A stretch of 64,000 nucleotides of DNA from Fodinicola acaciae (GTDB taxonomy: Bacteria > Actinomycetota > Actinomycetes > Mycobacteriales > HKI-0501). The notes under the pieces were generated by a model that searched no databases, was not told the origin of the DNA, and worked only from the letters and a program-made list of their open reading frames with translations. Positions 8,969 to 59,310 of the stretch are shown here, one piece after another. The position numbers and the translations under genes are program-made. The stretch is taken from positions 1,429,235 to 1,493,234 of the forward strand of contig NZ_WOTN01000001.1 in the NCBI RefSeq assembly GCF_010993745.1, written 5' to 3'. The stretch's first letter is position 1; the number at the start of each line of letters is the position of its first letter.

Positions 8969-9410
8969 GCAGCTCCGGATGCGCGTCGCGGACGGTGTTG
9001 AGCTGGACGTCCTGCTCCAGCAACGCTTTCGCGGCGCTCAGCATCCAGGTGAAGCCGCCGGTGGAGTCCGCGGCGTAGGCGACCATCTCCTCCAGCGTGC
9101 CGGTCATGCCGGTCTCCTTGACGGTCATGTGGGTCATCCCGTCGCCCCACGGCCGGAAGTCGAACTCGACCGTCGTCCTGCCTTCGTTCCAGTCGAAGAC
9201 GATGCGGCTGTCCGGCACGACCTCCTTGACGCGCACGTCACCGGAGACGCCGTACATCTCCCATGACCAGGTCAGCTGCGCGCCAGCGACCATCTTGCCG
9301 GTGCTCTTGGTGAACCAGAACCGGCTGGTCACGTCCGGGTCGGCGAATGCGTTGAAGACCTCCGCGCACGGCCGGCGGATCAGGATTTCGGTGTTGACAA
9401 CGGGAATCAT
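8952..9410 (-). CDS. SRPBCC (AHSA1-like) domain protein
   Basis: A 152-residue single-domain protein of the START/AHSA1 fold: RRPCAEVFNAFADPDVTSRFWF at the N-terminus, then the beta-rich core ending in a long C-terminal helix (GGFTWMLSAAKALLEQ). Such proteins bind small hydrophobic ligands, but the ligand cannot be predicted. The ATG is preceded by AGGAGG at 4 nt and overlaps the stop of the upstream ArsR-SRPBCC gene as ATGA, so the two are co-transcribed and coupled. The 3' end overlaps the convergent ATPase gene. Confidence 0.82.
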   Translation of the reverse strand: MIPVVNTEILIRRPCAEVFNAFADPDVTSRFWFTKSTGKMVAGAQLTWSWEMYGVSGDVRVKEVVPDSRIVFDWNEGRTTVEFDFRPWGDGMTHMTVKETGMTGTLEEMVAYAADSTGGFTWMLSAAKALLEQDVQLNTVRDAHPELLKPGW

Positions 9411-10285
9411 CGGGCCTCCTGTTTGATCGCGTCCTGCCAACGCTTGTCGTCGGCGCTGTCCGGCAGCGGCTCACCGGTCTCGATGAGCGACTTGAGGCCG
9501 GCGAGCACCTCCGGCCAGCCACCGCTCTCCAGCTGACCGCTGATGCCCTGGTACATCTTGCTGTCCGGTTCGAAATCGTCGTGAGTAACGGTGAGCTTCA
9601 CCGATCCGGCCGTCACCGGCTCGATGTCGAAGGTCACCTTGGACTGCTTTTCGTTCGCAGCCGCGGCGAACTCCTCGTCGCTCCAGCCGAAGTACTCCTG
9701 GTGTTCCGGCTGGTATTGGTGCCAGCGATAGGAAAGCCGCCGGTAGGGATCGGCGACCAGCACGACCTGCCCCTGGTCTTTTGGTTGCTGGTCACCGTAT
9801 TGCAGCAACACCGGCGACCCGACCCGCCAGTCGGAGACCAGTCCCAGGCCGCCCCAGTAACGCCTGGTGAAGGCCGGCTCGGTCAGCGCCTGCCAGAGTT
9901 TCTCCGGTGTGGTCTTGATGTAGGTCGTGTAGACGAACTCCGTGTTCATTTGCGGTGCCACTGGCTCCTTCTCCAATGCGGCTTTCAGGTCGGCGAGCGC
10001 GCCGGCCCGTGTGCGGTCGTACTGATTCATCCACCGGTCGGCGATCGCGTTGATCGGCACGGCGTTGAGAAAATGCAACTTCTCCCGGCCACGCCACGAG
10101 ATCGTCACCAGGTTGGCCACTTCCAGCACGGCCAGGTGTTTGCTGACCGACTGCCGCGCCATCTCCAGCCCCGCGCACAGCTCGCGCAGGCTCTGTCCGT
10201 TACGCGCGTTGAGGCTGTCGAGCAGGCGGCGGCGACTCGGGTCCGCCAGGGCTCGGAAGACCTCGTCCACGCCCACCTCCAACAT
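9407..10285 (-). CDS. ArsR-family repressor fused to an SRPBCC domain
   Basis: A 292-residue protein. Residues 1-95 are a winged-helix ArsR domain (VFRALADPSRRRLLDSLN, LCAGLEMARQSVSKHLAVLE), with no cysteine pair of the metal-sensing ArsR type. Residues about 115-292 are an AHSA1-like SRPBCC domain (TTPEKLWQALTEPAFTRRYWGG). This suggests a one-component sensor in which the SRPBCC pocket reads a small molecule. The chosen ATG matches the usual N-terminus and sits inside a palindrome. An in-frame ATG 18 nt upstream, 4 nt after the -10 box, is the alternative leaderless start. It is coupled to a stand-alone SRPBCC gene downstream. Confidence 0.85.
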   Translation of the reverse strand: MLEVGVDEVFRALADPSRRRLLDSLNARNGQSLRELCAGLEMARQSVSKHLAVLEVANLVTISWRGREKLHFLNAVPINAIADRWMNQYDRTRAGALADLKAALEKEPVAPQMNTEFVYTTYIKTTPEKLWQALTEPAFTRRYWGGLGLVSDWRVGSPVLLQYGDQQPKDQGQVVLVADPYRRLSYRWHQYQPEHQEYFGWSDEEFAAAANEKQSKVTFDIEPVTAGSVKLTVTHDDFEPDSKMYQGISGQLESGGWPEVLAGLKSLIETGEPLPDSADDKRWQDAIKQEAR

Positions 10286-10304
10286 GCAGCCACCCGGCTG
10301 CATG
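10283..10304. promoter_or_regulatory. Operator O1, overlapping the repressor start codon
   Basis: Perfect palindrome CATGCAGCC-ACCC-GGCTGCATG: 9-bp arms and a 4-nt centre. It covers the ATG of the ArsR-SRPBCC gene and the region just downstream of its -10 box. Occupancy would block initiation. It shares the GCAGCC-N4-GGCTGC core with O2. Confidence 0.7.
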
Positions 10305-10306
10305 TG

Positions 10307-10336
10307 ACTATAGGCAGCCATCCGGCTGCATGTCAA
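10307..10336 (-). promoter_or_regulatory. Promoter of arsR-SRPBCC with operator O2 in the spacer
   Basis: Minus-strand promoter TTGACA (10336-10331), an 18-bp spacer, then TATAGT (10312-10307): a near-consensus sigma70 match. The spacer is almost entirely a second operator, GCAGCC-ATCC-GGCTGC (10314-10329), 28 bp from O1. This layout is what a self-repressing ArsR-type protein would use. Confidence 0.7.
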
Positions 10337-10351
10337 TCCGACCCGGACGCT

Positions 10352-10983
10352 CGCATGGCCACCATGCGTGCGTTGAGCTTGGGTTTTAACTTCTGGGTTG
10401 TTCCGCGCCACTGGACGCCCGACGGTTGGCAACGTGAGGGTCCCCGGCTCGCCTACCCTGCTCCCAGAGCTGCCCATCCGGGTCATCGTCGGGTGGCGCA
10501 GCGACCGGGTGACGTACGTCCAGTCATCGGCTGCGCGGGCCGGCACGGAAGGTGTCATGGCAGGTGGCGACAAGGTCCACTACATGAGATCCACCGGGGC
10601 GTGTAACGCTAAATGACTGTCTTGTGAGGTATACCGGTGGCGTGAATGCCGAGTTACTGGCGCTAGATGCAAGGAACACGGCTTTCACGTCCGCGTGACT
10701 GCCAGCACCTGTGGTGGGTGTGACTACTGAGGCCAGTAATGCTGTTGTGGCTGCTCGCCTGGCCGGGCTCGATGTCCGGGGTGCCAATTGCCCGGGTTTG
10801 ATGTCTTGTTAACCAAGTATTACCCGGTCAGGCCGTCTCACTCGCATGGTTGGCCACGGCAGCCATACCAGCGGCCGCCCTAGCCGCCGCTGGATGTTCA
10901 CAGGGACTCCCTTACGCGCGCCTGGATCGCGGCGGCGTGGGAGTCGTTGCATGCCATGCGAGCGCACGCATGGTGGCCATGCG
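10352..10983. repeat. Repeat element copy 1 (632 bp, inverted ends)
   Basis: A non-coding stretch bounded by a 21-bp inverted repeat, identical at 10352-10372 and 10963-10983; each end is itself a palindrome (CGCATGG-CCA-CCATGCG). Its 10374-10607 part is repeated, with roughly four in five bases identical, at 27850-28060. Its 10819-10875 part recurs at about 28063-28120. A 67-nt piece (10642-10708) recurs at 59192-59258 on the other strand. 10603-10625 and 10902-10983 recur in order at 36655-36739 on the other strand. It fills the whole gap between the ArsR gene and the next gene. A MITE-like or structured-RNA repeat is possible. Confidence 0.65.
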
Positions 10984-10995
10984 ACCAAAGGCTGG

Positions 10996-11826
10996 TCAGC
11001 TGTCGAAGGCGGTGTCCCGCGAAACGGATTCCCATTCGTCCAGGTCGGCGGCCAGCAGGGCATGCTGCTGGCGCAGGCTGTCGACGGCGTCGCCGCCGAG
11101 CGCCAGCCGCAACGGCGTCTTCGGCGCGTCGAGGGCCTGGATGATCGCGCGTACGGCCTTCGCCGGGTCGCCAGCCTGCGAGCCGTCGCCACCGGTGACA
11201 TAGTCGCGCGTCGGGCCGACGGTCGCCGCGTACTCGGGCATCGGCGCGGACAGGTACGCGGCCGACGGGTCGAAAAGGCTCGTGCGGAAGGCTCCCGGCT
11301 CGACGATCAGAAACCGTACGCCGAAGTCGACCTCCTGGCTGAGCGTCTGCGTCAGCGCCTCCAGCGCGAACTTCGTGGCACAGTACGCGCCGAAACCGGG
11401 ACCGGTGATCTGACCGCCGACGCTGGACATCTGCACGACCGCACCACCACCCTGCCGGCGCATGTGCGGCAGCGCGGCACGCGTGAGCGCGGCAGGACCG
11501 AAGAAATGCAGGTCGAAAAGCGCACGCAGCTCCTGGTCGGTCGTCTCCTCCAGCGCACCGACCTGCGTACGGCCGGCGTTGTTGACAAGTACGTCGATGC
11601 GGCCGTGCCGCGCCACCACCTCGTCGACCAGCGCGCGACCGGCGTCGGCGTCGGTCACGTCCAGGCGCACCGGGAACACCTGTCGCGGATGCGCGCTCGC
11701 GAACTCCTCCAGTCGCTCAGGCTTCCGCGCGGCTCCGACGACGATGTCACCGGCCGCCACCGCCGCCTCGGCGAGCGAGCGTCCAAAACCCGAGGTGGCG
11801 CCGGTTATCAACCAAATCCGTGTCAT
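10996..11826 (-). CDS. Short-chain dehydrogenase/reductase
   Basis: A 276-residue classical SDR. The Rossmann motif TGATSGFG (residues 8-15), NNAG (86-89), a catalytic Ser in SSVGG and YCATK (YxxxK) are all present. Oxidises or reduces an alcohol/carbonyl with NAD(P)(H); the Arg in GAARKPERL favours NADP. Resembles the group annotated as oxidoreductases that convert small ketones or steroid-like substrates, but substrate is unknown. It lies alone, downstream of the repeat element on the minus strand. Confidence 0.88.
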   Translation of the reverse strand: MTRIWLITGATSGFGRSLAEAAVAAGDIVVGAARKPERLEEFASAHPRQVFPVRLDVTDADAGRALVDEVVARHGRIDVLVNNAGRTQVGALEETTDQELRALFDLHFFGPAALTRAALPHMRRQGGGAVVQMSSVGGQITGPGFGAYCATKFALEALTQTLSQEVDFGVRFLIVEPGAFRTSLFDPSAAYLSAPMPEYAATVGPTRDYVTGGDGSQAGDPAKAVRAIIQALDAPKTPLRLALGGDAVDSLRQQHALLAADLDEWESVSRDTAFDS

Positions 11827-27354: not shown

Positions 27355-27849
27355 ATGGCGTCAACCCGAGCGGCCAGGCCGGCGATCGGCATTGCGAACG
27401 GAAAGCCACTGCTGGACGAGGTCAACCTCCGGCTGCTCGCCGAGCTGCGCGACGACCCGCGGCTGAGCATGTCCGAGCTCGCCCGCCGGGTCGGCATGTC
27501 GCCGCCGGCGGTGACCGAGCGGGTCGGCCGGCTGGAACAGGCCGGCGTCATCCGCGGCTATCGCCTCGAGATCGACCCGGCGGCGATCGGCCTGCCGGTG
27601 TCGGCGTGGGTCCGCGTGCGGCCGGGACCCGGCCAGCTGCACCGCGTCGCCGAGGTCGTCAGGCGTACGCCGCAGGTCACCGAGTGCCACCGGATCACCG
27701 GCGACGACTGCTTCCTGCTGCACGTCTTCGTGGCGGCCGTGCCGGACCTGGAGGACGTGCTCGACGAGATCCGCCAGTACGGCACGACCACCACGGCCGT
27801 CGTCGTCTCGACGCCCGTGGAGCCGCGACCTCTCCCGCTGTCTTCTTAG
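27355..27849 (+). CDS. Lrp/AsnC-family transcriptional regulator
   Basis: A 164-residue protein. The HTH is at about 25-70 (LLAELRDDPRLSMSELARRVGMSPPAVTERV), followed by a RAM (ligand-binding) domain (VSAWVRVRPGPGQLHRV, TECHRITGDDCFLLHVFV). Lrp proteins sense amino acids and form octamers or dimers. CAGGAG lies 6 nt before the ATG. The divergent EamA exporter is the probable target. The stop codon is followed directly by a repeat-family copy. Confidence 0.9.
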   Translation: MASTRAARPAIGIANGKPLLDEVNLRLLAELRDDPRLSMSELARRVGMSPPAVTERVGRLEQAGVIRGYRLEIDPAAIGLPVSAWVRVRPGPGQLHRVAEVVRRTPQVTECHRITGDDCFLLHVFVAAVPDLEDVLDEIRQYGTTTTAVVVSTPVEPRPLPLSS

Positions 27850-28143
27850 CTTGAGTTTTAACCTCTGGGTTGGTGAGCCACTGGGCGCTCGACGGCTGGC
27901 CTCCCCTGCTCTCAGAGCCGCCCATCCGGGTCATCGTCCGGCAACGCAGCGACCGGGTGGTGTCCTTCCAGCCATCGGCTGCGCGGACCGGCGCCGAAGG
28001 TGTCAAGGCGTCCCAGTAGATGGCGAAAAGGTCCACCACATGGGATCCAGGCGTGTGTAGGTATTCTCCGGTCGGGCCGTCTCACCTGCATGGTTGGCCA
28101 CAGCAGCCACACCAGCACCACCACCAGGTCCACGGATCGAGGC
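27850..28143. repeat. Repeat element copy 2 (fills the intergenic gap)
   Basis: Non-coding. 27850-28060 matches 10374-10607 at about four bases in five, for example CTCTCAGAGCCGCCCATCCG against CTCCCAGAGCTGCCCATCCG. From about 28063 it resumes with the part found at 10819-10875 (GGCCGTCTCAC, GCATGGTTGGCCAC), so copy 1 has about 210 bp that copy 2 lacks. The 21-bp inverted ends of copy 1 are absent here. Base changes do not favour third codon positions in either open frame, so I read it as non-coding. Confidence 0.6.
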
Positions 28144-36569: not shown

Positions 36570-37008
36570 CTGTGGCTTACGCAGCCAAGCCGCCTCACCG
36601 GCATTATCAGCCACACGAGTCACACCAGCACCACCCCGACCGCCACTCAATGTTCGCATGGCCCCATACGTGCGTCAGGCGCACGTAAGGCGTCCCTACT
36701 ACCAAAAGACAAACCGACAAGACGGTCATTTAGCGTTACAGCATGTGGTTTCCTCCGGGCGCCGACGGGGAGAACGAGCAAGCCCAGAAAACCCAGACCC
36801 GCCCACCAACCGCCACCCCACGCACACCGATTGGCGTTCCCGCGCCCCCTCCCCTTGAGGTCGCCCTCCGCGCAGGAGCGCCAGCCGCGCAGGCGAAAAC
36901 CCACCCAACGCAACAACCAGGAGACGCAACAACCTCCCCACCGCAATGAACAAGAGACGCACCACCCGCACAACGCACCACCAAGAAACGCACCATCTCG
37001 CCACTCAT
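36570..37008. other. Non-coding gap with repeat remnants
   Basis: No credible gene. 36582-36637 resembles the end part of copy 2 (GCCGCCTCACCGGCAT, CACACCAGCACCACC). 36655-36739 is a compact minus-strand repeat copy, listed separately. The rest (about 36740-37008) is low-complexity, with repeated ACGCACCACC-like units and no codon bias typical of this genome. Confidence 0.5.
36655..36739 (-). repeat. Repeat element copy 3 (compact, reversed)
   Basis: On the minus strand the order is GTAACGCTAAATGACCGTCT (36739-36720; 22 of 23 bases match 10603-10625), then AGGGACGCCTTACGTGCGCC (cf. 10902-10925). The terminal sequence (36674-36655) is one gap and one mismatch from the 21-bp end of copy 1. The collinear order with copy 1, with internal parts missing, shows a shared right end. 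A 7-bp hairpin ACGTGCG-TCAGG-CGCACGT lies at 36668-36686. Confidence 0.6.
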
Positions 37009-59164: not shown

Positions 59165-59310
59165 TACTTTAGCGCTAAATGCCCGCTTCCAGTGCTGGCG
59201 GTCACGCAGGCGTGAATGCCGTATTTCTCGCATCCAGCGCCAGTAACTCGACATTCACACCTCCAGCAAGCCTCACGCCATGACACCTTCCGAGCCGGTC
59301 CGCGTAACAC
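59165..59310 (-). repeat. Repeat element copy 4 (contains the 67-nt core)
   Basis: On the minus strand it starts with CGCGGACCGG (59303-59294) and GGAAGGTGTCATGGC, matching 10533-10562. It then skips about 80 nt present in copy 1 and continues with the 67-nt core (59258-59192), identical to 10642-10708 at 58 of 67 positions and of exactly the same length. It ends near GCATTTAGCGCTAAA. Confidence 0.65.

Follow-up and report, generated by a model that had tools for sequence, protein, structure and literature searches.

A non-coding, MITE-like element of Fodinicola acaciae and its very probable insertion into the loop of a separate repeated hairpin

The locus

We analysed a 64,000-nucleotide stretch of the Fodinicola acaciae genome (the window), in which a repeat designated copy 1 (10352-10983) lies between an ArsR-type regulator gene on its left (9407-10285, minus strand) and a short-chain dehydrogenase gene on its right (10996-11826, minus strand). 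An earlier note on this DNA had described copy 1 as bounded by identical inverted 21-mers, each an internal palindrome. Both statements hold for 10352-10372 and 10963-10983, which are exact inverted copies of each other, and the inverted match extends to 22 nt (10351-10372 and 10963-10984). A distance of 12 bp separates the right 21-mer from the stop codon of the dehydrogenase gene. The repeat features of the window are as follows.

10352-10372, unstranded: left arm of the target hairpin, CGCATGGCCACCATGCGTGCG; this 21-mer occurs 430 times genome-wide, mostly in an intact 21-5-21 hairpin
10373-10377, unstranded: TTGAG, hairpin loop and left copy of the 5-bp target-site duplication
10378-10957, plus strand: body of copy 1, with the left terminal repeat CTTGGGTTTTAACT first (consensus CTTGAGTTTTAACC)
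10960-10962, unstranded: GAG, read from the sequence as a possible remnant of the right TTGAG duplication copy
10963-10983, unstranded: right arm of the target hairpin
27850-28122, plus strand: second element copy, consensus 1-244 and 456-517 (blastn of the consensus)
36577-36658, plus strand: element fragment, consensus 459-540 (76%, E 8e-11)
36651-36704, unstranded: intact hairpin whose arms are of the divergent type (AGGGACGCCTTACGTGCG); on the minus strand its loop reads CCTGA (covariance model R1)
36717-36740, minus strand: element fragment, consensus 241-264
59194-59304, minus strand: element fragments, consensus 165-194 and 263-345

The body of copy 1 corresponds to consensus positions 1-595 of 716, at 89% over 597 columns when the consensus was compared with the window by blastn, and the right ~120 bp of the element are deleted. 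Copy 1 is very probably an element inserted in a hairpin loop, with its right ~120 bp missing. Its loop sequence, TTGAG, also occurs among the loops of 78 intact hairpins collected from the genome.

The further copies reported for the window were compared with copy 1 by blastn. The one near 27850-28143 was recovered at 27848-28116 (82-88%), and the minus-strand copy near 59310-59165 at 59304-59192 (minus strand, 87-93%). The second element copy has an intact left end and immediately follows the stop codon at the end (27849) of a plus-strand gene, with no hairpin arm adjoining. The minus-strand copy placed at 36739-36655 stands only in part: there is a short match at 36740-36717 (minus strand, 96% over 24 nt), but the piece consists mostly of the hairpin at 36651-36704, which scores 50.7 bits (E 7e-11) with covariance model R1, and has short element fragments beside it.

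A dispersed non-coding element with its own ends

Searching the 8.86-Mb genome (four contigs) with copy 1 returned 68 matching pieces on all four contigs, with E-values down to 1e-195, which were merged by hand into about 40 sites. Searches with the element ends added five more, giving at least 45 decayed copies. Copies thus occur far beyond the window with conserved ends, which excludes the chance similarity that the earlier note had allowed for, and their presence on all four contigs rules out a tandem or local duplication. From 29 aligned copies we derived a consensus of ~716 bp that begins CTTGAGTTTTAACC and finishes GGTTAAAACTCAAG. The terminal inverted repeats are 14 bp long, CTTGAGTTTTAACC, and are found at both ends in 13 copies. 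Median pairwise identity among copies is 80%. Some have large internal deletions, and the blocks lost differ from copy to copy, as had been noticed within the window.

The body was read as non-coding and free of a transposase, and this was borne out: it gave no Pfam domain match and has no codon periodicity, variation being even over codon positions and short indels mostly not multiples of three. Many element sites are intergenic, and one (L012) stands between divergent genes. Terminal inverted repeats, target-site duplications, differing internal deletions and many intergenic copies without coding capacity together agree with the description as MITE-like. The other suggestion, a structured repeat RNA, fits the hairpin but not the body, since an Rfam search gave zero matches for the repeat and the single-strand fold of the body is only modestly better than that of shuffled sequence (z only -2.4).

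A search for an autonomous element with the same ends, by terminal-repeat pattern and by ends only, found none in the genome itself and no end pairs more than 1 kb apart. Nor did any autonomous relative with these ends turn up in 398 further genomes of the order or in the plasmids and phages searched. The region C2:1293177-1295631 was rejected as an autonomous copy, since two partial copies there merely bracket what we read as an amidase-like host gene. An IS200/IS605-derived element (PATE) does not fit the 5-bp duplications or the lack of Y1_Tnp (PF01797), which was absent from this genome and from five relatives (G001, G002, G008, G027 and G036) in a search that was positive in E. coli.

Very probable insertion into the loop of a repeated hairpin

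At up to three mismatches the 21-mer has 218 + 212 = 430 occurrences in the genome (reversed control, 0 + 0), and most of the listed matches form opposite-strand pairs starting 26 bases apart, that is, the 21-mer, 5 nt and the inverted 21-mer. The 21-mers had been taken for the ends of the element; they are instead arms of a separate and more numerous hairpin, the element having its own ends, CTTGAGTTTTAACC. The 78 intact hairpins were collected with a scoring scheme that fixed the loop at 5 nt and at loci partly chosen via the 21-mer; a looser, independent scan in which the loop was free to vary returned the same arrangement in 22 of 22. The hairpin repeat has a ~21-bp stem of conserved sequence, a 5-nt loop (most commonly CTGGA/TCCAG, TCTGA, TCCAA or TTGGA) and roughly 200 copies; the copy counts for both repeats are lower bounds. 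Its density is uneven, since an unselected 400-kb stretch of contig 4 held 4 hairpins and zero elements. Along the long stem, changes on both sides are seen at 9 pairs. Each arm is itself palindromic, 96% of its cells being paired, and shows compensatory changes; the fold is very stable (energy z -9 to -11). No flanking duplication was found around intact hairpins.

The 13 two-ended element copies were examined for target-site duplications, which are exact over 5 bp in 10, carry one mismatch in 1 and do not match in 2 (L002 and L081). The duplicated sequence varies by copy (TCCAA, ACCAA, GTGGA, CCGGG, TCCAG, TAAAG, TTTAA), and hairpin arms flank it on both sides in 11 of the 13. Given the observed loop spectrum, we estimate that two unrelated loops would agree ~9% of the time and that 10 identical duplications among 13 would arise by chance with a probability of about 1e-8. 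At L017 the target hairpin closes with A-T while the first element base is C, which places the boundary at 5 bp, not 6 or 7. Since the identical 5 bases outside the element ends are followed by the arms, the loop was the insertion site and the target duplication is the loop itself. Two copies, L011 and L026, lie outside any hairpin yet retain the same ends (CTTGAG) and a 5-bp duplication, that of L011 being read from the copy alignment. The arms must therefore belong to the target and not to the element, and the preference for hairpins is not absolute.

Copy 1 is thus very probably a decayed, non-autonomous, MITE-like DNA transposon inserted in the 5-nt loop of a separate repeated hairpin. A transposase recognising the CTTGAGTTTTAACC ends would have made a cut staggered by 5 nt in the hairpin loop and placed the element there, so that exactly the loop was duplicated as the 5-bp target-site duplication; it may have recognised the hairpin as stem sequence or as an extruded cruciform. 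The copies would later have decayed by point changes and block deletions, leaving no source element. The two repeat families, their nesting, the duplications, the surrounding genes and the absence of the element from the relatives sampled can be read from the DNA itself; mobilisation by a transposase now lost, its recognition of the hairpin and the 3'-end function of the hairpin are inferred. Weighing against the account are the failure to find an autonomous relative with these ends or a clean empty site, the unmatched flanks of L002 and L081, and the position of L012 between divergent genes.

The hairpin model also aligned an arm-like stretch (CAGGGACTCCCTTACGCGCG) within the element body at window positions 10895-10987, hinting at nested insertions inside the element.

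Hairpins at gene ends

Neighbouring genes, called with a simple codon-model gene caller, were available for 77 hairpins, of which 31 lie in convergent, 39 in co-directional and 7 in divergent gaps. A stop codon is found within 25 bp of 50 of these hairpins, whereas 10,000 simulations of uniform placement in the same gaps averaged 31 and went no higher than 41. In co-directional gaps the upstream stop is the nearer one for 35 of 39 hairpins, and one hairpin is often common to both genes of a convergent pair. The hairpin thus resembles an intrinsic terminator in being stable, GC-rich and placed just downstream of genes; a U-tract 3' of the stem is absent, T reaching at most 0.47 at one position before the sequence turns GC-rich. 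It is probably a two-way 3'-end hairpin, acting as a terminator or as a protector of mRNA ends. Because no U-tract follows, the case for termination is drawn from position and fold.

Relatives and hairpin turnover

The comparison with relatives that the earlier note proposed did not extend the family: a search of 398 other genomes sampled from the order gave no copy of the element, only a single match of 36 bp (E 8e-7). Matches of 35-45 bp at E ~1e-4, mostly to one GC-rich stretch, were treated as chance; they vanish at E 1e-6, where one different match, the 36-bp one, remains. A scan of the genome collection (own genome not included) for arms joined to the terminal repeat gave 3 matches, about the chance number.

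Hairpins are more widely shared. With both strands counted, model R1 matched 101 times in G001, the only congener in the sample (74% complete), in which no element was found, and 7 times in G027, 5 in G036, 2 in G008 and 0 in G002. The congener has similar hairpins plus a variant GCATCGACGCGATGCGTGCG-N5-, and arms of the kind GCCCCCAAGGTGCCCTTGGGGGCG occur in G036 and G027, where they enclose a TTGAG or CTCAA loop; across these variants the double palindrome and 5-nt loop persist while the sequence changes. Few palindromes emerged when 400 kb of G001 and 400 kb of G036 were surveyed de novo, so the divergent families there are sparse. In orthologous spacers a hairpin is common to both congeners at L074, while G001 is without it at L061, L097 and L126; hairpins therefore turn over between congeners. 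The search for a clean empty site in G001 gave none: its spacers orthologous to L003 and L009 lack both the hairpin and the element, the counterpart of the L020 spacer, which we take to be hemH-fabI, holds other DNA, and the right neighbour of copy 1 is not syntenic there. Five loci in G036 and G027 (L142, L143, L145, L148 and L150) show a second genus with double-palindrome hairpins of its own, mostly near gene 3' ends.

Discussion

If the 21-mers were the terminal repeats of a single element, the back-to-back pairs would be internally deleted or excised copies. The identical arms that bound copy 1 and the large internal deletions in some copies are compatible with this, but the arms are several-fold more numerous than the bodies, the direct repeats lie inside the arms and not outside them, intact hairpins have no flanking duplication, L011 and L026 keep CTTGAG ends and duplications without arms, and the congener has hairpins but no body that we could find. 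This reading is already largely refuted, and we regard it as highly improbable.

What the hairpins themselves are is a separate matter. They may be ordinary intrinsic terminators, immobile, kept alike by selection and gene conversion, and used by the element as safe sites. We give this reading real weight, short of calling it probable: the excess near stop codons (50 of 77, against 31 expected and a maximum of 41), the 35 of 39 co-directional hairpins nearer the upstream stop and the very stable fold speak for it, whereas the missing U-tract, the uneven density and the hairpin-free spacers of G001, with sharing at L074 only, speak against it. Alternatively, the hairpins could be REPs or REPINs multiplied by a RAYT (Y1) transposase, the element merely targeting them as IS of five families target REPs (PMC1525189). 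Short palindromic arms kept paired by compensatory change, inverted extragenic pairs in more than 100 copies, species-specific sequence, the lack of flanking duplications and presence or absence that differs between congeners would all suit such an origin. A cognate RAYT is nevertheless missing here and in the five relatives, and the association of RAYTs with REPs has been described as obligate (PMC2817692), which leaves this origin unlikely. It is similarly doubtful, though conceivable, that the hairpins are mobile, portable gene-end double palindromes that spread to stop codons without a RAYT and keep their architecture while their sequence changes between species and between genera, the transposase that moved the element having recognised them by their shape, a cruciform loop.

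Very probable insertion of a MITE-like element into a hairpin loop can be set beside several known systems. TRIT, reportedly a hairpin family of conserved sequence downstream of genes, is another actinobacterial case and is not known to be a transposon target. It is the sequence-conserved terminator of M. tuberculosis (Gardner et al. 2011, cited in PMC3526491). The REP-targeting IS (IS1397, ISKpn1, IS621 and ISRm22; Tobes & Pareja 2006, PMC1525189) are, like the element here, mobile and specific for a repeated extragenic palindrome; unlike them, the present element is non-coding, duplicates the whole 5-nt loop and has a target that lies at the 3' ends of genes, in a genome that lacks a RAYT. 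MITEs of bacteria such as RUP, BOX, Correia and CIR (PMC10969869) share non-coding content, terminal inverted repeats, target duplications, intergenic location and internal deletions, but our element is longer (~716 bp), has no known autonomous partner, and its target site is strict and structural. In Streptococcus pneumoniae, SPRITE is an AT-rich, terminator-like repeat of 30 copies with a U-rich tract (PMC3049150), found near the 3' ends of genes and near convergent genes like the hairpin here, which is instead GC-rich, lacks a U-tract and has a fixed 5-nt loop; pneumococcal repeats, SPRITE included, insert in one another (PMC3049150). REP/REPIN-RAYT systems also consist of inverted short-palindrome pairs, species-specific and in many copies (PMC2817692), but no Y1 transposase occurs in this genome or the relatives tested. 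The present case would be a clear natural example of a transposon that has inserted exactly in the loop of a repeated 3'-end hairpin, a site at which genes are spared. Structure-directed target choice thereby becomes testable, and a lineage-specific, sequence-conserved gene-end hairpin family is exposed without the transposase usually held responsible.

Other palindromic arrangements

At L078:1154-1277, between divergent genes, hairpin arms form a tandem array in one orientation, with GTCCGCATGGCCACCATGCGTGCGTTCAGC repeated. Immediately upstream of the ArsR-type gene beside copy 1, two 20-bp palindromic copies (GCAGCCAYCCGGCTGCATGT) occupy window positions 10284-10334 and are probably its operator. 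The homologue of this gene in G001 is preceded by a similar palindrome pair (L172:1331-1382).
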